Source: Alphaproteobacteria bacterium | GTDB lineage: Bacteria > Pseudomonadota > Alphaproteobacteria > ATCC43930 > CGMCC-115725 | Reading direction: 5' to 3' | Assembly (NCBI GenBank): GCA_021325525.1 | Contig: JAJPHB010000060.1 | Coordinates: forward strand, 1-61,268 | DNA length: 61,268 bases | Position numbers and translations under genes: made by a program | Shown here: positions 2,621-51,024 of the stretch, in pieces | How the letters are laid out: the number at the start of each line of letters is the position of its first letter | Position numbering within the stretch: position 1 is the stretch's first letter | Notes under the pieces: model-generated | The model's database searches: none | What the model saw: only the letters and a program-made list of their open reading frames with translations | Told to the model about the DNA's origin: nothing

Positions 2621-3633
2621 CGCGCCGCCTGCCGCTCGGGCGGCGCCGCGCGCGCCGCGTCGCGGTCGGCTTGGCCGAGCGGGTAATGGCAGCGCACCCG
2701 CCCGCCCCGCCAGGAGCGCAGCTCGGGCTGCAGGGCGCGGCAATGCTCGTTGGCGAAGGCGCAGCGCGGGTTGAAGAGGCAGCCCCGCGGCCGGTCGTGG
2801 AGGCCGGGAACGACGCCGGGGATCGTCGCGAGGCGGGTCTCGCCGGTGCTGCGCTCGGGCAGGGCGGCGAGGAGCGCCGCGGTGTAGGGGTGCTGCGGCG
2901 CCGCGAAGAGCTCCGCCGCGCTCCGCTCCTCGACGATCTGCCCCGCATACATGACGGCGACGCGCTGCGCCGTCTCGGCGACGACGCCCATATTGTGGGT
3001 GATGAGAATGAGCGCCATGCCGCGCTCGCGCTGCAGCGTCAGCAGCAGATCGAGGATCTGCGCCTGGATCGTGACGTCGAGGGCGGTCGTCGGCTCGTCG
3101 GCGATGAGGAGGCGCGGGTTGCAGGCGATCGCCATGGCGATCATGACGCGCTGGTTCATGCCGCCCGAGAGCTGGTGCGGGAAGGCTCGCAGCCGGCTCT
3201 CCGGCGCCGGAATCCCGACCTGCTCCAGAAGCTCGATCGCGCGCCGGCGCCGCGCCGCGCCGCCGAGGCTCTTCTCGTGCAGCCGGAGCGCCTCCTGGAG
3301 CTGGAAGCCGATGGTGAAGCACGGGTTGAGGCTCGTCGCCGGCTCCTGGAAGATCATCGCCATGTCCTTGCCGGTGAGCCGCCGGCGCTCGCGCGCCGAG
3401 AGCGCCAGCAGGTCCTGTCCGGCGAAGGCGAGGCGCCGGGCGCGCACCTGCCCCGGAAAGCCGACGAGGCCCATCAGCGCCAGCATGGTGACGCTCTTTC
3501 CCGAACCCGATTCGCCGACGATGCCGAGGACTTCGCCTTCCTCGATCCGCAGATCGACCGCATCGACCGCGTGCATGACGCCGCCGACGGTCGGGAAGTC
3601 GACGGACAGCGCCTCGATTTCGACGAGCGCCAT
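2617..3633 (-). CDS. dppD: Dipeptide/oligopeptide ABC transporter ATP-binding protein DppD
   Basis: This is the first ATPase of the importer, 338 residues. It shows Walker A GESGSGKS, signature [15 protein letters not shown], Walker [13 protein letters not shown], switch His in ITHNMG, and the family's C-terminal Cys-containing motif ([14 protein letters not shown]). The start is the ATG that opens [13 protein letters not shown], 2 bases after the dppC stop; upstream in-frame residues have no family match. It acts with DppF on the cytoplasmic side of the DppB/DppC permease pair. Confidence 0.93.
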
Positions 3634-16668: not shown

Positions 16669-17595
16669 TTGAGCCGAAAGCCGAGCATCGAAGCCGCCGT
16701 GCCGGCGCTCTGGCGGCTGTGCGCCACCCTCAGGGACGAGCGCGGGGCGGCGGCCGTCACCGCCGCCTTCGAGACCTGCGCCAATGCGGTGAGCGCCTTC
16801 GAGACGGCGCCGGGCGGCGCCTGGCGAGTCGAAGCCTTCGCCGAGGCGGAGCCCGATCGCGCGAACCTTGCCGGGGCGGCCGCGGTCGCGGCTGTCGCCT
16901 TCGGCGCGACGGACGATGATCTCCTGGCTGGGCTTACCGTCGAGAGCCTTCCTCCCCGAGACTGGCTCGGCGAGAACCGCCTCAGCTTTCCGCCGCTCCG
17001 CATCGGCCGCTTTTTCGTCTACGGCTCGCATATCGGCGCGGTGCCGCCGGCCGGCAGCCTGGCGCTCCGCATCGATGCGGCGACGGCCTTCGGCACCGGC
17101 GAGCATGCGACGACGCGCGGCTGCCTTCTCGCGCTGATCGAGCTGGCGCGGCGCCGGCCTATCGGCCGCACGCTCGATATGGGGACGGGGACCGGCATCC
17201 TCGCCATGGCCGCGGCGCGGCTGTGGCACCGCCCGGTGCTGGCTTGCGATATCGATGCCGGCGCCGTCGCGGTCGCGGGCGCCAATCTGCGCGCCAACGG
17301 CCTCGCGCGGCAGGTCAGGCTATACCGCAGCCACGGCTATCGGCATCCGGCTGTGCGGCAAGGGCGGCCCTTCGATCTCGTCCTCGCCAACATCCTCGCC
17401 CGCCCCCTCGCGCGCATGGCAGCAGCGCTGGCGCGCCATCTCGCCGAGGACGGCGTCGCGGTCCTCTCGGGATTGCTCGACCGCCAGGTGCCGTTCGTGC
17501 TGGCGGCGCACCGGGCGCACGGGCTCGTCCTGCGCCGGCGGATCGCCGTCGAGGGCTGGACGACGCTGGTGCTGGGTCGGGGAAGATGCCGCTAA
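16669..17595 (+). CDS. prmA: Ribosomal protein L11 methyltransferase PrmA
   Basis: This enzyme trimethylates ribosomal protein L11 using S-adenosylmethionine. The N-terminal half is the substrate-recognition domain. The C-terminal Rossmann methyltransferase domain has AFGTGEHATTRGCL, then motif I LDMGTGTGILAMAA, DIDAGAVAVAGANLRANG, and the active-site-like motif FDLVLANILARPL. I start at a TTG (16669), with AGGAC 9 bases before it, which gives 308 residues, close to the family size. Another TTG at 16573 is possible. The stop codon overlaps that of the convergent DUF1127 gene. Confidence 0.88.
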   Translation: MSRKPSIEAAVPALWRLCATLRDERGAAAVTAAFETCANAVSAFETAPGGAWRVEAFAEAEPDRANLAGAAAVAAVAFGATDDDLLAGLTVESLPPRDWLGENRLSFPPLRIGRFFVYGSHIGAVPPAGSLALRIDAATAFGTGEHATTRGCLLALIELARRRPIGRTLDMGTGTGILAMAAARLWHRPVLACDIDAGAVAVAGANLRANGLARQVRLYRSHGYRHPAVRQGRPFDLVLANILARPLARMAAALARHLAEDGVAVLSGLLDRQVPFVLAAHRAHGLVLRRRIAVEGWTTLVLGRGRCR

Positions 17596-17906
17596 GCGGC
17601 GCGGCGTGGCCGGTCGTTGCTGTTGACGGGCTCGGCGGAGCGCGGGCCAGTGCTCGCCGGTTCAAGCCGAAGCTGCGGCGCCGCCAGCGCCTGTTCGATC
17701 TCGCTGCGGCGCAGCCCGATATCCGCGAGCTGCCGGTCATCGAGCGCCATCAGCTCGATATAGGCGCGCCGCGTTTCACGGGCATCGCGGAGCGGCTTCA
17801 GGACGAAGCGGTCCAGAAGATCGAGGACGGCGCCAAGGCCGGGAACGAGGCTGGCTGGGCTCTCCGGGAGCCGTGCCGCCGAGCGTTGGGCGAAATCGGG
17901 CGACAT
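17592..17906 (-). CDS. DUF1127 small protein, copy 1
   Basis: A 104-residue protein carrying the Arg-rich DUF1127 helix near residues 40-75 (RRAYIELMALDDRQLADIGLRRSEIEQAL). Short DUF1127 proteins are widespread in alphaproteobacteria, where some affect RNA turnover, phosphate or stress physiology. The C-terminus NSNDRPRRAA resembles the end of the second copy (NSNDARRAA), so the two are paralogues. AAAGGA precedes the ATG. A palindrome centred at 18001 lies 95 bases upstream of the start codon and resembles those upstream of two other genes in the window. Confidence 0.82.
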   Translation of the reverse strand: MSPDFAQRSAARLPESPASLVPGLGAVLDLLDRFVLKPLRDARETRRAYIELMALDDRQLADIGLRRSEIEQALAAPQLRLEPASTGPRSAEPVNSNDRPRRAA

Positions 17907-17991
17907 GTGCTGATCCTTTCTCGTCGCTGCATTCCCGCGCTGAACCGCGCGCCGCAGGAGATAAGAGGTTCCGTTGCGCCTTCGAGGAGAA

Positions 17992-18010
17992 ATTGTTGCA
18001 GTGCAGCAAT
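17992..18010. promoter_or_regulatory. Palindromic operator-like site A
   Basis: ATTGTTGCAGTGCAGCAAT is a 19-base palindrome with one mismatch, extendable by one base on each side. Its core TGC-AGT-GCA is centred at 18001, 95 bases upstream of the DUF1127 copy 1 start. It matches the site at 20967-20985 in 15 of 19 positions. The 315-base gap 17907-18221 shows nothing else I can name. Confidence 0.6.
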
Positions 18011-18221
18011 TCCTCCGGCGCATGGAATAGGCGAGGAGAGGAGCACTGCGGCTCGATGGGGCCGAGCCGTCGAACGAACCGGCCCGGGCTAACGCGGGAG
18101 TGGTCCGAACGGGCGGAGCAGGCGCCCCCCGGCCGGAGCTCCGGTCGAGATTACGCCGCCCTGCGCCGTCCGGTCCGAACGCCGGCGCGCGGTCGCTTCA
18201 CGAAGAGTTTAGGGCCGGCGA

Positions 18222-18452
18222 TCAGGCCGCGCGCCGGGCGTCGTTGCTGTTGGCCGCAATCCGCAGCGCCGGCTCGCCCGCCTCCTGGCGCGCCTTGCAG
18301 AAGACGACGAAGGGGATGTCGGCGCGGCTGAGGCCGAGATCGGCGAGGGCATGATCGTCGAGCGCGCTCAGCTCGGCATAGGCGCGGTGCTGCTCGCGCC
18401 AGGTCCGCAAACGCTCGGCAACGGTCCGGAAGGTGGTTTTGAGAGCCATCAT
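18222..18452 (-). CDS. DUF1127 small protein, copy 2
   Basis: A 76-residue DUF1127 protein. The domain reads HRAYAELSALDDHALADLGLSRADIPFVV at about residues 21-50, after an amphipathic start (TTFRTVAERLRTWREQ). It ends NSNDARRAA like copy 1. It starts with two consecutive methionine-encoding codons (18452 or 18449); GAGATGTG lies just upstream. It is transcribed from its own promoter region, because 315 bases with an operator-like site separate it from copy 1. Two sites with a TGC-N3-GCA core lie about 43 and 93 bases upstream of the second ATG. Confidence 0.82.
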   Translation of the reverse strand: MMALKTTFRTVAERLRTWREQHRAYAELSALDDHALADLGLSRADIPFVVFCKARQEAGEPALRIAANSNDARRAA

Positions 18453-18483
18453 GGCACATCTCCAATGAAAGGTTCGCGCATCG

Positions 18484-18500
18484 ATTGTGCGTTGCACAAC
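18484..18500. promoter_or_regulatory. Palindromic operator-like site B2
   Basis: TTGTGC-GTT-GCACAA is a perfect palindrome centred at 18492, 43 bases upstream of the second ATG of DUF1127 copy 2. It shares the TGC-N3-GCA core with the three longer sites but has shorter, slightly different flanks. Its centre is 50 bases from the upstream site, a spacing compatible with two half-tetramer contacts of a LysR-type regulator. Confidence 0.4.
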
Positions 18501-18533
18501 AGGTAAGCGCGGCCCGACGAGACTCCAGGGCGC

Positions 18534-18551
18534 ATTTTGCATCGCAGCATT
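18534..18551. promoter_or_regulatory. Palindromic operator-like site B1
   Basis: ATTTTGCATCGCAGCATT has the core TGC-ATC-GCA centred at 18542, about 90-93 bases upstream of DUF1127 copy 2. Its right half GCAGCA matches site A, and its left half ATTTTGC matches with one base shift. The position relative to the gene is nearly the same as in sites A and C. The same 200-base region also precedes aminopeptidase P on the other strand. Confidence 0.45.
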
Positions 18552-18652
18552 TCACCTCATGCATGGCATCGTGGGGCCGGCGCGGCGCGCCCTATTGTGT
18601 CGGGCGGCGGTCGCGCCTAGCTTTCGCCGGGCGACGCAGAGGGACATCGATC

Positions 18653-20707
18653 ATGAGCGAGGCGAAGGCGGTGGCCGGGGCGGACTATCAGGGCGATGCG
18701 GCGCTGGCGCGCCTCCTGGCCCAATCCGGCTCGCCCTACGATATCGGCGGCCTCGAGGCGCTGGTGGAAGGGGTGCTGGCGGCACCGGCAAACAGGGAAT
18801 GGACGCGTCTTGCGGCGCCGCAGGTGTCGCCCGAGCTGGAGGTGCAGCTCGAGGCTTTCGCCCGGCGCCTCGCGGAACGGCAGCGCCGGGCCGCGCCGCC
18901 GCGCCCGAAGCCCGCCGAACGCCTCGCGCGTCTGCGCACCGAGTTGGCGAAGCGGGGTCTTGCCGGCTTTATCGTGCCGCGCGCCGACGAGCATCAGGGC
19001 GAATACGTGCCGCTCTGCGCCCAGCGCCTTTCTTGGCTGACGGGCTTCACCGGCTCGGCGGGGCTCGCCATCGTCCTCGCCGACCGCGCCGCCATCTTCG
19101 TCGACGGCCGCTACACGCTCCAGGTGCGTGCCGAGGTCGAAGGCCAGCTTTATGAATACCGGCATGTGACGGAGGAGCCGGCGACCGCGTGGCTGGCGCA
19201 GCATCTCAAAGCGGGCGAGACGCTCGGCTACGATCCGTGGCTGCATGTGCCGGGTGAAATCGAGCGCTACGCCGCGGCCGTGGCGAAAGCGGGCGCGCGG
19301 CTCGCTGCGGTCGATGGCAACCCGGTCGACGCGGTCTGGCAGGACCAGCCGCCGCCGCCCCTCGCGCCGGTCGTCGCTCACGATCTGCGCTTTGCCGGCA
19401 AGCCGGCGGAGGAGAAGCGCCGGGAGATTGCCGAGCGGCTCGCCGCCGAGGGCGTCGACGCGGCCATCCTGACCGCGCCCGACTCGATCGCCTGGCTGCT
19501 CAATATCCGCGGCGGCGACGTGGCGCGGACGCCGCTGCCGCTTTCCTTCGCGATTGTCGCGCGTGACGGCGCGGTCGAGCTCTTCATCGACCGTCGCAAG
19601 CTCGTTCCCGGCCTCGAGGCGCATCTCGGCAACGCCGTTGCCGTGCAGCCGCCCGCCGCCTTCGGCGCCGCCTTGGAGCGCCTCGGCCAGGAGAAGAAGC
19701 GCGTCCAGGCCGATCCCGCTTCCGCCGCTTCCTGGGTCTTCGATCGGCTGGCGAGCGCCGGCGCCGTGATCCACCGCGCCGCCGATCCCTGCCAATTGCC
19801 GAAGGCGCGGAAGAACGAAGTCGAGCTCGCCGGAACGCGCGCTGCCCACCGCCGCGACGGCGCGGCGTTGACGCGGTTCCTCGCCTGGCTCGCCAAGGAG
19901 GCGCCCTCGGGGCGGCTCCGCGAGATCGCGGCCTCCGACCGGCTCGAAGCGATCCGGCGCGAGGGCGAGCATTTCCGCGACCTCAGCTTCTCGACCATTT
20001 CGGGTGCGGGCTCGAACGGCGCCATCGTCCATTACCGCGCGACACCGGCCACGGAGCGCACCCTCGCGCCGGGCGAGCTCTACCTTCTCGATTCGGGCGC
20101 GCAATATCTCGACGGCACGACCGATGTGACGCGGACGATCGCGATCGGCGCTCCCTCGGCCGAGATGAAGGATCGCTTCACCCGCGTCCTCAAGGGCCAC
20201 ATCGCCCTCGCGACGACGCGCTTTCCCGCCGGCACCACCGGCTCGCAGCTCGACGTGCTGGCGCGCCACGCGCTCTGGCAGGCCGGGCTCGATTTCGACC
20301 ACGGCACCGGCCATGGCGTCGGCAGCTACCTCGCCGTCCATGAGGGACCGCAACGCATCTCGAAGGTGCCCAATACGCAAGCGCTGCTGCCCGGCATGAT
20401 CGTCTCGAACGAGCCCGGCTACTACAAGACCGGGGCCTATGGCATCCGCATCGAGAACCTCGTCGTCGTTGTGCCCTGCACCGACCTGCCGCAGGCCGAG
20501 CGCGAGATGCTTGCCTTCGAGACGCTGACCCTGGCCCCCATCGACCTCGCCCTCGTCGAGCCGGCGCTGATGACGACGTCCGAAATCGCCTGGCTCGACG
20601 CCTATCATGCCCGCGTCCGCGAGATCGTGGCGCCACAGCTCGACGCCGCCACGGCCGCCTGGCTGGCCGAGGCGACGCGGCCGGTCGCGGCTTACGCCTC
20701 TCCTTAG
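18653..20707 (+). CDS. pepP: Xaa-Pro aminopeptidase (aminopeptidase P, M24B)
   Basis: A cytoplasmic metallopeptidase that removes the N-terminal residue from Xaa-Pro peptides. It has 684 residues and three domains: two creatinase-like N-terminal domains (first motif PRADEHQGEYVP, then WLTGFTGSAGLAIV) and a pita-bread catalytic domain. Metal ligands lie in LDSGAQYLDGTTDVTRT (two Asp), GHGVGSYLAVHEGP (His), SNEPGYY (Glu) and RIENLVVV (Glu). An unusual stretch of about 85 residues precedes the conserved start PKPAERLARLRTEL. The ATG at 18653 is the best start, but no in-frame ATG lies near residue 85, so the extension seems real. Confidence 0.92.
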   Translation: MSEAKAVAGADYQGDAALARLLAQSGSPYDIGGLEALVEGVLAAPANREWTRLAAPQVSPELEVQLEAFARRLAERQRRAAPPRPKPAERLARLRTELAKRGLAGFIVPRADEHQGEYVPLCAQRLSWLTGFTGSAGLAIVLADRAAIFVDGRYTLQVRAEVEGQLYEYRHVTEEPATAWLAQHLKAGETLGYDPWLHVPGEIERYAAAVAKAGARLAAVDGNPVDAVWQDQPPPPLAPVVAHDLRFAGKPAEEKRREIAERLAAEGVDAAILTAPDSIAWLLNIRGGDVARTPLPLSFAIVARDGAVELFIDRRKLVPGLEAHLGNAVAVQPPAAFGAALERLGQEKKRVQADPASAASWVFDRLASAGAVIHRAADPCQLPKARKNEVELAGTRAAHRRDGAALTRFLAWLAKEAPSGRLREIAASDRLEAIRREGEHFRDLSFSTISGAGSNGAIVHYRATPATERTLAPGELYLLDSGAQYLDGTTDVTRTIAIGAPSAEMKDRFTRVLKGHIALATTRFPAGTTGSQLDVLARHALWQAGLDFDHGTGHGVGSYLAVHEGPQRISKVPNTQALLPGMIVSNEPGYYKTGAYGIRIENLVVVVPCTDLPQAEREMLAFETLTLAPIDLALVEPALMTTSEIAWLDAYHARVREIVAPQLDAATAAWLAEATRPVAAYASP

Positions 20708-20736
20708 CGGGCTTCCGCCATGAACCCTCCTATCTC

Positions 20737-20904
20737 ATGACCGACGAGGCGCCGCAGTATCGCAAGACGGGCAAGGAGTTCTCAGGCCACGACACTGTCA
20801 ACCATAGCGCCGAAGAGTACGTCCGCGCCCACTTCTGGCACACCAACACGGTTGAGGGTTATTTCTCGATCCTCAAGCGCGGCATCACGGGCGTCTATCA
20901 CGCA
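20737..20904 (+). pseudogene. IS1595-family (ISXO2-like) transposase remnant
   Basis: About 55 codons translate to a segment that aligns with residues 206-260 of the intact transposase at 60153-61097: TDEA, then VNHSAEEY, then TNTVEGYFS and KRG are shared. The N-terminal two thirds, the rest of the C-terminus and both ends of the element are missing. It differs at many positions, so it comes from an older, different IS1595 member. It lies directly before the 2OG-Fe(II) oxygenase promoter region. The 362-base gap 20708-21069 holds only this remnant and the palindrome at 20967. Confidence 0.8.
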
Positions 20905-20966
20905 ATATCATATACTTGGAGGGGGAAATCGCGCTGTGGCTGGTGGATTTGGCTCAGCACCGATGT

Positions 20967-20985
20967 ATTGTTGCTCAGCAACAAT
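20967..20985. promoter_or_regulatory. Palindromic operator-like site C
   Basis: ATTGTTGCTCAGCAACAAT is a perfect 19-base palindrome (apart from its central base) centred at 20976, 94 bases upstream of the 2OG-Fe(II) oxygenase ATG. It lies about 60 bases beyond the transposase remnant. It matches site A (17992-18010) in 15 of 19 positions. Confidence 0.65.
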
Positions 20986-21069
20986 CTTTCGCGTCGATAT
21001 GCCCCGCCAAGACCGCATTAACCATGCCGACGCAGCATCGCGCCGCCATTGCCAGCGAAAGGATCGACG

Positions 21070-21951
21070 ATGAGCGAGGCGGTCTCCGAGATCAACGTCA
21101 CCCTCCTGCTTCAAGGCGGGCACAGCCGCAATCTGCGCCTCGACAAGGACGATCCGCTGCTGCGCTCGCTTCTTGCCTCGATCGAGGACAAGGCCGATGG
21201 CGGAGCGCGGGTGCCGCGTCCCTATCATCTGCGCGTCAATGAAGGGCAGGGGCAGCGCTCGCTCATCTTCTCCGGACGCGATCTCGTCGGCATCGTCGTC
21301 GACCCGCCGCTCGCCTTCCGCGACCGCTCCGGCGCTGCGGAGGCGGCGCAGGGCCAGCAAGCGTCACCTTATGTCCTGATCGAGAATTTCCTCGATCCCG
21401 AGCGCCATGCCGAGCTTGTGCGCTTTGCCATCGACGCCGAAGCGCGCTTCACCACCTCGTCGGTCACGACGGGCGATGATGATTACCGCCGCTCGCGCGT
21501 CCTCTTCGAGTTTCCGGCCTTCTCCGCCCTCTTCCGCGAGAAAGTGGCGGCGCTTGCGCCGCAATTGATGCAGCGCTTCGCCCTTCCGGCATTTCCGATT
21601 GCCGAGATCGAGTGCCAGATGACGGCGCATAATGACGGGCACTATTTCAAGCTGCATAACGACAATGGCTCGCCGGAGACGCTGACGCGCGCCCTCTCCT
21701 ACGTCTATTACTTCTTCGCCGAGCCGCAGGGCTTCTCGGGGGGCGAGTTCCGCCTCTACCACAGCCGCATCAAGGACGGCGCCTATCATTGCGGCGAGCA
21801 CGCCGCCGACATCGCGCCGCGCAACAACAGCATCCTCTTCTTCCCGAGCCATTGCCATCACGAGGTGCTGCCGGTGCGCTGCGCCTCCGGACGCTTCGCG
21901 GACAGCCGGTTCACGGTGAATGGCTGGATCCGCCGGCGGGCGGCGGCCTGA
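21070..21951 (+). CDS. 2-oxoglutarate/Fe(II)-dependent oxygenase (prolyl hydroxylase-like)
   Basis: A 293-residue oxygenase with a C-terminal double-stranded beta-helix of the prolyl 4-hydroxylase type (about 105-290). The iron ligands are visible as H196-N-D198 in YFKLHNDNGS and a distal His in PSHCHHEVLPV (263 or 264); Arg280 in DSRFTVNGW should bind the 2-oxoglutarate carboxylate. The N-terminal 100 residues are variable and without a named domain. AAAGGA lies 6 bases before the ATG. The substrate is unknown: related enzymes hydroxylate protein prolyl residues or small molecules. The operator-like palindrome upstream links it to the DUF1127 genes by inference. Confidence 0.85.
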   Translation: MSEAVSEINVTLLLQGGHSRNLRLDKDDPLLRSLLASIEDKADGGARVPRPYHLRVNEGQGQRSLIFSGRDLVGIVVDPPLAFRDRSGAAEAAQGQQASPYVLIENFLDPERHAELVRFAIDAEARFTTSSVTTGDDDYRRSRVLFEFPAFSALFREKVAALAPQLMQRFALPAFPIAEIECQMTAHNDGHYFKLHNDNGSPETLTRALSYVYYFFAEPQGFSGGEFRLYHSRIKDGAYHCGEHAADIAPRNNSILFFPSHCHHEVLPVRCASGRFADSRFTVNGWIRRRAAA

Positions 21952-50430: not shown

Positions 50431-50615
50431 TTCACAGTAAAAATCTGGGTCGTTTCGTGTTGGCGACTGTCTATTTCTCTGCCAAACCCTAGTTTCCGCG
50501 CCGCATTTCCAATCCTGCGCTCTTCGGGACGAAGAGACCGCGAGTTAAGACAAAGGAAAGACATTGTTCCATTTTTGTTCTGAAACGATCGGGAAATACC
50601 CGCTCCGGATGATGC

Positions 50616-51024
50616 GCCAGACGGCCTGTAAGCCGGGTTCTGTCCCCGCCCTCGGGCGGGGGATGGCCATTCCTCTGGGACGCCCGTCGCCGAGCGCCTC
50701 GCGCGACCGACCCGGATGGCGGCGTGGAAACTCGCCTGGCCCTGCCCGTCGCCGGACGGGGCCTGCCATCCCTACTTGGTCTTGCTCCCGGTGGGGTTTA
50801 CCGTGCCGCCGCCGTTACCGGCGGCGCGGTGCGCTCTTGCCGCACCCTTTCACCCTTGCCGCCGCGGCGAGCCGAGGCTCGCCGCGGGTTGGCGGTTTGC
50901 TTTCTGTGGCACTGTCCCTGGGGTCACCCCCGCCGGGCATTACCCGGCACCGTGTTTCCATGGAGCCCGGACTTTCCTCTCCCGCACCCAAGACGGGCGG
51001 AGAGCGGCCATCCGGCCGTCTGGC
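50616..51024 (-). ncRNA. rnpB: RNase P RNA (type A)
   Basis: The RNA component of RNase P, which cuts the 5' leader from pre-tRNA. Read on the minus strand it shows the conserved blocks GAGGAAAGTCCGGGCTCC near the 5' end, CAGGGACAGTGCCACAGAAA, GGTGAAAGGGTGCGGCAAGA, GGTAAACCCCACCGGGAGCA, AGAGGAATGGCC and the 3' segment ACAGAACCCGGCTTA. The ends pair perfectly as an 11-base helix P1 (51014-51024 with 50616-50626). The size, about 409 bases, fits type A. No clear factor-independent terminator follows. Confidence 0.95.

Follow-up and report, generated by a model that had tools for sequence, protein, structure and literature searches.

Predicted PhaR (AniA) operators upstream of two genes for small DUF1127 proteins in an alphaproteobacterium

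Two genes for small DUF1127 proteins in a 61,268-nucleotide stretch of alphaproteobacterial DNA (contig JAJPHB010000060.1, analysed over its whole length and hereafter called the window) are preceded by palindromes with a TGC-N3-GCA core, which an earlier note had grouped with a similar palindrome before a 2-oxoglutarate (2OG)-Fe(II) oxygenase gene and tentatively attributed to a LysR-type regulator of the VtlR/LsrB kind. We propose that three of these palindromes, sites 1, 2 and 4, are very probably operators for PhaR (AniA), a repressor titrated by polyhydroxybutyrate (PHB) granules. This prediction follows from their close match to the known PhaR box, the occurrence of that box at PHB genes elsewhere in the genome, the presence of a PhaR gene, and the recurrence of the box before one type of DUF1127 gene. 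The two genes and the sites in their promoters are:

17592..17906, minus strand: DUF1127 gene 1 (104 aa; Pfam PF06568, 41.8 bits)
17992-18010, no strand: site 1, ATTGTTGCAGTGCAGCAAT; 21-nt PhaR-type box at 17991..18011, AATTGTTGCAGTGCAGCAATT; centred 95 nt before the start of DUF1127 gene 1
18222..18452, minus strand: DUF1127 gene 2 (76 aa; Pfam PF06568, 51.9 bits)
18482..18502, no strand: site 4, proximal PhaR-type box, TTGTGCGTTGCACAA, box CGATTGTGCGTTGCACAACAG; centred 40-43 nt before the start of DUF1127 gene 2
18534-18551, no strand: site 2, distal PhaR-type box, ATTTTGCATCGCAGCATT; 21-nt box at 18532..18552, GCATTTTGCATCGCAGCATTT; centred 90-93 nt before the start of DUF1127 gene 2

The three palindromes named in the earlier note (sites 1, 2 and 3) lie where it had placed them, sites 1 and 3 are identical at 15 of 19 positions as it claimed, and its distances from centre to start codon hold as well, at 95 bases for site 1 (ATG 17906), 90 or 93 for site 2 (ATG 18452 or 18449) and 94 for site 3 (ATG 21070). 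The fourth TGC-N3-GCA site, for which it gave no coordinates, most likely corresponds to 18482-18502, here site 4; a further such core lies nearby at 18560-18568. The flanks that it described as common to all three named sites are shared by sites 1 and 3; those of site 2 fit less well, and the site is missed when up to three mismatches are allowed. At that stringency ATTGTTGC-N3-GCAACAAT occurs twice in the window versus 0.06 times expected, a count that 1 of 100 shuffles reached, while the bare core TGC-N3-GCA is barely enriched (26 occurrences versus about 21 expected).

To compare the palindromes with characterized operators, we derived a symmetric matrix from 16 PhaR sites of Sinorhizobium meliloti, all in promoters classed as 'Efficient' in electrophoretic mobility shift assays (PMC12542648 Table 3), with no sequence of the present genome contributing. 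Of the 20 site sequences given for such promoters, the four exoH sites were excluded as ambiguous; the remaining set includes the S. meliloti phaP1, phaP2 and mmgR sites, and its members score 19.3-31.2 bits. Within the window the matrix ranks site 1 first (28.4 bits), followed by site 2 (19.9 bits), site 4 (17.0 bits, below the range of the training sites) and site 3 (14.3 bits), with the fifth-ranked place at 12.7 bits. Third-order Markov simulation of the window yields 0.5 sites of at least 17 bits per Mb, or 0.03 per window, and the three such sites observed within 562 bases are therefore far from a chance outcome. At 14.2 bits or more the expectation rises to 3.0 per Mb, or 0.18 per window, so that site 3 alone is not significant at the level of the window. 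Furthermore, sites 1, 2 and 4 fit the PhaR core YGC-RNY-GCR, with AGT, ATC and GTT as their respective R-N-Y centres, and of these three only site 1 matches the full published S. meliloti consensus, WNWD2NYGCRNYGCRNH2WNW (PMC12542648), exactly.

The same box marks putative PhaR targets elsewhere in this genome, which also encodes PhaR itself (TIGR01848 equivalog, 155.8 bits against a cut-off of 109.45, plus PF07879 and PF05233). With phasin genes and ccr identified by NCBIfam and Pfam models and mmgR by Rfam, boxes of 31.7 and 25.4 bits precede phaP, boxes of 24.6 and 17.2 bits precede a second phasin gene, and a 24.2-bit box lies directly upstream of the small RNA mmgR (RF00519, 49.3 bits; contig 63, stretch L074, 1409-1481), reported to be a direct PhaR target in S. 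meliloti (PMC12542648). A second mmgR copy (RF00519, 54.0 bits; contig 26, stretch L007, 1387-1458) has upstream boxes of 16.0, 14.9 and 14.4 bits. Two further boxes, of 16.7 and 17.4 bits, occupy 2946-2966 and 3070-3090 of stretch L226 (contig 167), between a gene for crotonyl-CoA carboxylase/reductase (ccr, TIGR01751 above cut-off) and a divergent methylmalonyl-CoA-mutase-family gene that we read as ecm of the ethylmalonyl-CoA pathway; this arrangement suggests that the pathway is under PHB-linked control. In seven stretches outside the window (44,196 bases in total, five picked for their matches and two for phaR and trxB-lysR), all sites of at least 12 bits lie before phaP, the second phasin gene, the ccr/ecm-like pair or mmgR genes, and the phaR and trxB-lysR stretches hold none. 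Paired boxes, their centres separated by 50-57 bp, occur in the promoters of phaP, the second phasin gene and DUF1127 gene 2, and in this layout DUF1127 gene 2 resembles the phasin promoters of its own genome.

We then followed the box through DUF1127 promoters across Alphaproteobacteria. With DUF1127 gene 2 as query, matches were found in 37 of 61 genomes, its own included, and of the 46 promoters of these genes, 35 have a best box that outscores dinucleotide shuffles (p ≤ 0.05). The wider survey combined these 46 promoters with 150 class-wide ones (142 genomes; among the matches listed) and, after removal of 9 duplicates and of 4 that shared a reading frame, comprised 183 promoters from 83 genomes and 51 families; some entries, such as the two of genome G041, represent two domains of a single reading frame. 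The survey scan covered a fixed 350 bases upstream of the domain, whereas the shuffle test and the distance range given below refer to the 250 bases before the nearest ATG. At a threshold of 17 bits, a box is present in 56 of the 183 promoters, distributed over 53 genomes and 25 families, and in none of the same promoters read backwards; at 14 bits or more, scored against local background, the corresponding counts are 59 and 0.

The boxes are concentrated before one type of DUF1127 gene, hereafter the favoured type, defined by a glutamate before the first leucine of the stretch xELxxL..D..L.DIG. Boxes of at least 17 bits precede 49 of 77 favoured-type genes, compared with 3 of 80 for the other type and 4 of the 26 left unclassified, and the pattern persists outside the window's family and the next one (18 of 37, 3 of 78 and 4 of 25, respectively). 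De novo motif ranking agrees with the matrix-based result, as TGC-N3-GCA comes first of 832 gapped trinucleotide palindromes in favoured-type promoters, where it occurs in 55 of 77, compared with 4 of 77 when these are reversed and 9 of 80 for the other type. In related species, then, the box is often kept with this kind of DUF1127 gene, and this frequent retention, together with the ranking by the PhaR matrix, supports at the level of sequence the earlier claim that the palindromes form a real operator family common to both DUF1127 genes. The conserved distance to the start codon, which it counted as part of the evidence, fared differently: in 35 promoters of relatives, with the own genome included, the best significant box lies anywhere from 26 to 234 bases from the ATG, and we dropped a fixed 90-95-bp distance as a signature.

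Several observations weigh against the assignment to PhaR, beginning with motif scans of the whole genome, a kind of check that the earlier note had put forward. Here matches do precede phasin, ccr/ecm-like and mmgR genes, but enrichment overall is only mild. The published S. meliloti consensus has 18 exact matches versus 12 for a reversed control, site 1 and phaP among them, of which 12 have matrix scores, ranging between 0.9 and 31.7 bits (both places on C75 and those on C131, C134, C150 and C164 were left out). Similarly, TTGTTGC-N3-GCAACAA with up to two mismatches is found at 13 places versus 8 for its reversed control, namely two in the window, two at phasin genes, two at the ccr/ecm-like pair, one at the second mmgR and six others on C3, C26:7533, C56, C96, C134 and C158 that were viewed in raw context and carry no assignment; a looser asymmetric pattern gives 16 forward and 18 reverse matches versus 5 and 9 in the controls. 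A whole-genome scan with a model derived from the same S. meliloti sites (R1), in which 150 of 766 candidates were scored, returned four distinct places at E ≤ 10, comprising both phaP boxes, site 1 (E 0.3) and the box of the second phasin gene; the E-values are modest (0.05-2.4), and neither site 2 nor the mmgR box is listed. On the same side of the balance, the 9,000 bases around phaR contain no box of at least 12 bits, the other two of the genome's four DUF1127 genes have none (best scores 3.2 and 7.1 bits) despite both being of the favoured type, and the one same-genus genome searched has no DUF1127 match at E ≤ 1e-5. Across the class, 28 of 77 favoured-type promoters are without a box at 17 bits, and the Fisher p of 7e-17 for the difference between types is optimistic since the split was defined after the promoter list had been viewed. 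Finally, PhaR presence was tested in 142 class genomes, which assigns 46 of the 83 promoter genomes as positive and 5 (9 promoters) as negative, with 32 (37 promoters) outside the test; none of the 9 promoters in the genomes where PhaR was not found is boxed, a comparison with almost no power given that a single one of them is of the favoured type.

The regulator named in the earlier note deserves separate consideration, as VtlR is reported to activate three DUF1127 genes in Brucella, with the quoted motif CAATGCAGCCATGCA (PMC12595884). In favour of a LysR activator of the VtlR/LsrB type as reader of the palindromes themselves, this motif matches 12 of 15 positions at site 2 and 11 of 15 in a stretch overlapping site 1; against it, 16 places in the window reach at least 11 of 15, mostly away from these promoters. 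Of the four sites, only site 4 shows the LysR-type T-N11-A geometry; it is missing from sites 1, 2 and 3, where the bases at positions -6/+6 from the centre are G/C for sites 1 and 3 and T/C for site 2, as opposed to T/A for site 4. Because 2 of the 16 published PhaR sites also carry T-N11-A, this feature does not discriminate between PhaR and VtlR. What does speak to the choice is that sites 1, 2 and 4 fit the PhaR core and that the same box marks the phasin, mmgR and ccr/ecm-like promoters. We set VtlR/LsrB aside as reader of the palindromes on these grounds and consider its binding there very unlikely; by their sequence, the palindromes are a better match to the PhaR/AniA operator than to the VtlR/LsrB motif.

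A VtlR-like element does appear in relatives, separate from the palindromes. Among 27 promoters whose proximal PhaR-like box scores 8 bits or more, 10 match the reverse complement of the motif, TGCATGGCTGCATTG, at 11 or more of 15 positions in the interval 48-60 bp upstream of that box, versus one occurrence in twelve other 13-base offset windows combined, with the motif taken from the single quoted 15-mer. A VtlR-motif-like element, TGCATGGCTGNNTTG, lies at a near-constant 52-56 bp upstream of the PhaR box in the DUF1127 promoters of genomes G005, G011, G020, G025, G029, G030, G034, G035 and G036. The present genome, in turn, has a LysR gene directly downstream of trxB (contig 27, stretch L223, 4071-4961), the gene order described for lsrB in Rhizobiales, to which LsrB is said to be unique (PMC11975290). 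Its product reaches no NCBIfam cut-off among 25 listed of 56 matching families, and its best PDB match, 9hh1 (E 2.7e-99), is titled LysR family only. The trxB-linked gene is present here although the sole named relative of the genome, found through the oxygenase at 65% identity, is a metagenome-assembled genome labelled Rhodospirillales; either that label or the statement that LsrB is unique to Rhizobiales may need a second look.

VtlR-type control may thus be an additional input to the DUF1127 gene family, and the part of the earlier proposal that survives is this one, carried by the separate element in 10 of 27 promoters and the LysR gene behind trxB rather than by the palindromes. In its fullest form such an arrangement would combine a distal LysR/VtlR-type activator with PhaR repression at the core promoter, the distal place at DUF1127 gene 2 being taken by the PhaR-like site 2. 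We regard dual control of this kind as a serious possibility, if one that falls somewhat short of probable. The preferred offset of the element in relatives is in its favour, as is the position of site 2 about 50 bp upstream of site 4, near the place of the distal element. In the two promoters of the window, however, the in-register match is just 10 of 15 for gene 2 and 11 of 15, overlapping site 1, for gene 1; moreover, 17 of the 27 promoters are without an element at 11 of 15, the motif is a single 15-mer, and the LysR gene is no more than a candidate orthologue.

The palindrome before the oxygenase gene stands apart from those at the DUF1127 genes. The features at this locus are:

20737..20910, plus strand: transposase remnant of the IS1595 type (ISXO2-like), immediately before site 3 (PF12762, 48.8 bits, residues 1-58 of the open reading frame at 20737)
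20967-20985, no strand: site 3, ATTGTTGCTCAGCAACAAT; perfect palindrome with a TCA centre, 21-nt box at 20966..20986, a weak and doubtful PhaR box; centred 94 nt before the start of the oxygenase gene
21070..21951, plus strand: 2OG-Fe(II) oxygenase gene (293 aa; Pfam 2OG-FeII_Oxy_3, PF13640, 64.7 bits), a possible regulon member

The arms of site 3 are perfect, but its TCA centre breaks R-N-Y at both outer positions, and its score lies below those of all 16 training sites in a range where chance would supply a comparable site in roughly one window of this size out of several (0.18 expected). We lean slightly toward the view that site 3 is unrelated, a chance occurrence or a different palindrome, and that the oxygenase lies outside the regulon, a view to which the box-free homologue in genome G015 and the IS1595 remnant just upstream also contribute. 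Against it stand the agreement of the arms with the site 1 flanks at 15 of 16 positions, the location 94 bases before a start codon and the occurrence of 14-16-bit boxes before the second mmgR copy. At best, then, site 3 would be a weak relative of the PhaR box, and we judge membership of the oxygenase in the regulon slightly against.

Homologues of the oxygenase proved too rare for conservation of its promoter to serve as a membership test, which we dropped. With the own genome counted in both samples, 4 of 61 genomes have one at E ≤ 1e-20, and in the class-wide set, at E ≤ 1e-30, 3 of 385 do; without it the counts fall to 3 among 60 relatives and 2 among 384 genomes of the class, with G056 in both sets. 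No box precedes the G015 homologue (50% identity), the only one that combines a conserved start with an upstream region fit for scanning. The matches in G056 and G285 align from residues 96 and 92 only and have no box in the scanned stretch (best 8.6 and 2.9 bits), and the same-genus copy begins at a contig end. A contig search with the oxygenase returned one truncated locus, and comparison with the PDB a single weak match, to prolyl 4-hydroxylase (E 0.004). The IS1595-type remnant (20737-20910) sits between an M24 peptidase gene and site 3, and the oxygenase promoter may have been recently rearranged.

Among other features of the window, an RNase P RNA of class A is encoded at 50613-51023 on the minus strand (RF00010, 270.5 bits). 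A consensus promoter scan of 17850-21080 gave no sigma-70-like match, and plasmid records queried with DUF1127 gene 2 gave no match.

Returning to sites 1, 2 and 4 as predicted PhaR operators, the PhaR literature suggests a regulatory scheme for the two DUF1127 genes. In the absence of PHB, PhaR would bind the boxes and repress both genes; as PHB granules form, the repressor would be sequestered on them and the DUF1127 genes would be released together with the phasins and mmgR. DUF1127 proteins of Agrobacterium are reported to bind the phosphate sensor kinase PhoR, with a triple mutant displaying raised expression of phosphate uptake genes and raised uptake, and Escherichia coli YjiS likewise binds PhoR (PMC12501420). 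Since the Agrobacterium proteins bind PhoR, carbon storage could conceivably be coupled to phosphate uptake, and for the present proteins we may speculate that PHB storage dampens PhoR through DUF1127.

In a broader and tentative extension, which we hold to be possible yet rather less than probable, one type of DUF1127 gene would belong to the core of the PhaR regulon throughout the class, with an LsrB/VtlR-type activator and PhaR often both acting on it, and, should its products bind PhoR as their Agrobacterium and E. coli relatives do, carbon storage would tune phosphate acquisition via a small-protein relay. DUF1127 proteins are widespread and have been tied to phosphate and carbon metabolism in recent papers only. 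In the Brucella papers VtlR is named as their regulator, to which the prediction would add PHB status as a concrete second input; the DUF1127 promoters that carry a box, spread over 25 of the 51 families sampled, offer a direct test of that input, which, if real, would link a PhoR-binding small-protein family to the carbon store of the cell. Our literature searches found no published link between DUF1127 and PhaR, with supplementary tables and most subscription journals outside their reach, and such a link may be present in data already published; PMC9230146 contains both terms.

Compared with known systems, the predicted regulon is most like that of S. meliloti PhaR, with which it has in common the YGC-RNY-GCR core, AT-rich arms, boxes at phasin genes and mmgR, and two boxes per phasin promoter (PMC12542648). 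Here boxes are also found at two DUF1127 genes, a family unnamed in the main text of that paper; near phaR, where the present genome has no box at 12 bits or more, the S. meliloti phaR/phbAB region is reported to have bound PhaR weakly (PMC12542648). Published consensus sequences for other members of the class are CTGCNNNGCAG for Rhodobacter sphaeroides PhaR (PMC12542648) and TGCRNYGCASMA for Bradyrhizobium diazoefficiens PhaR (PMC6201568). The B. diazoefficiens regulon shares phasin targets, and several unknown small genes rise in its phaR mutant (PMC6201568, PMC10888616), with the main texts of both papers making no mention of DUF1127. VtlR/LsrB, for its part, is described as acting on three DUF1127 genes in Brucella (PMC12595884) and on the orthologous small-protein gene atu1667 in Agrobacterium (PMC7486931, PMC11975290), and a likeness to these systems is seen in the motif-like element of relatives and the trxB-linked LysR gene of the present genome. 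The two modes of control nevertheless differ in kind, as VtlR/LsrB is reported to be a LysR activator with an asymmetric motif, redox-responsive in the case of LsrB (PMC12595884, PMC7486931, PMC11975290), whereas the operators predicted here would answer to a PHB-titrated repressor.

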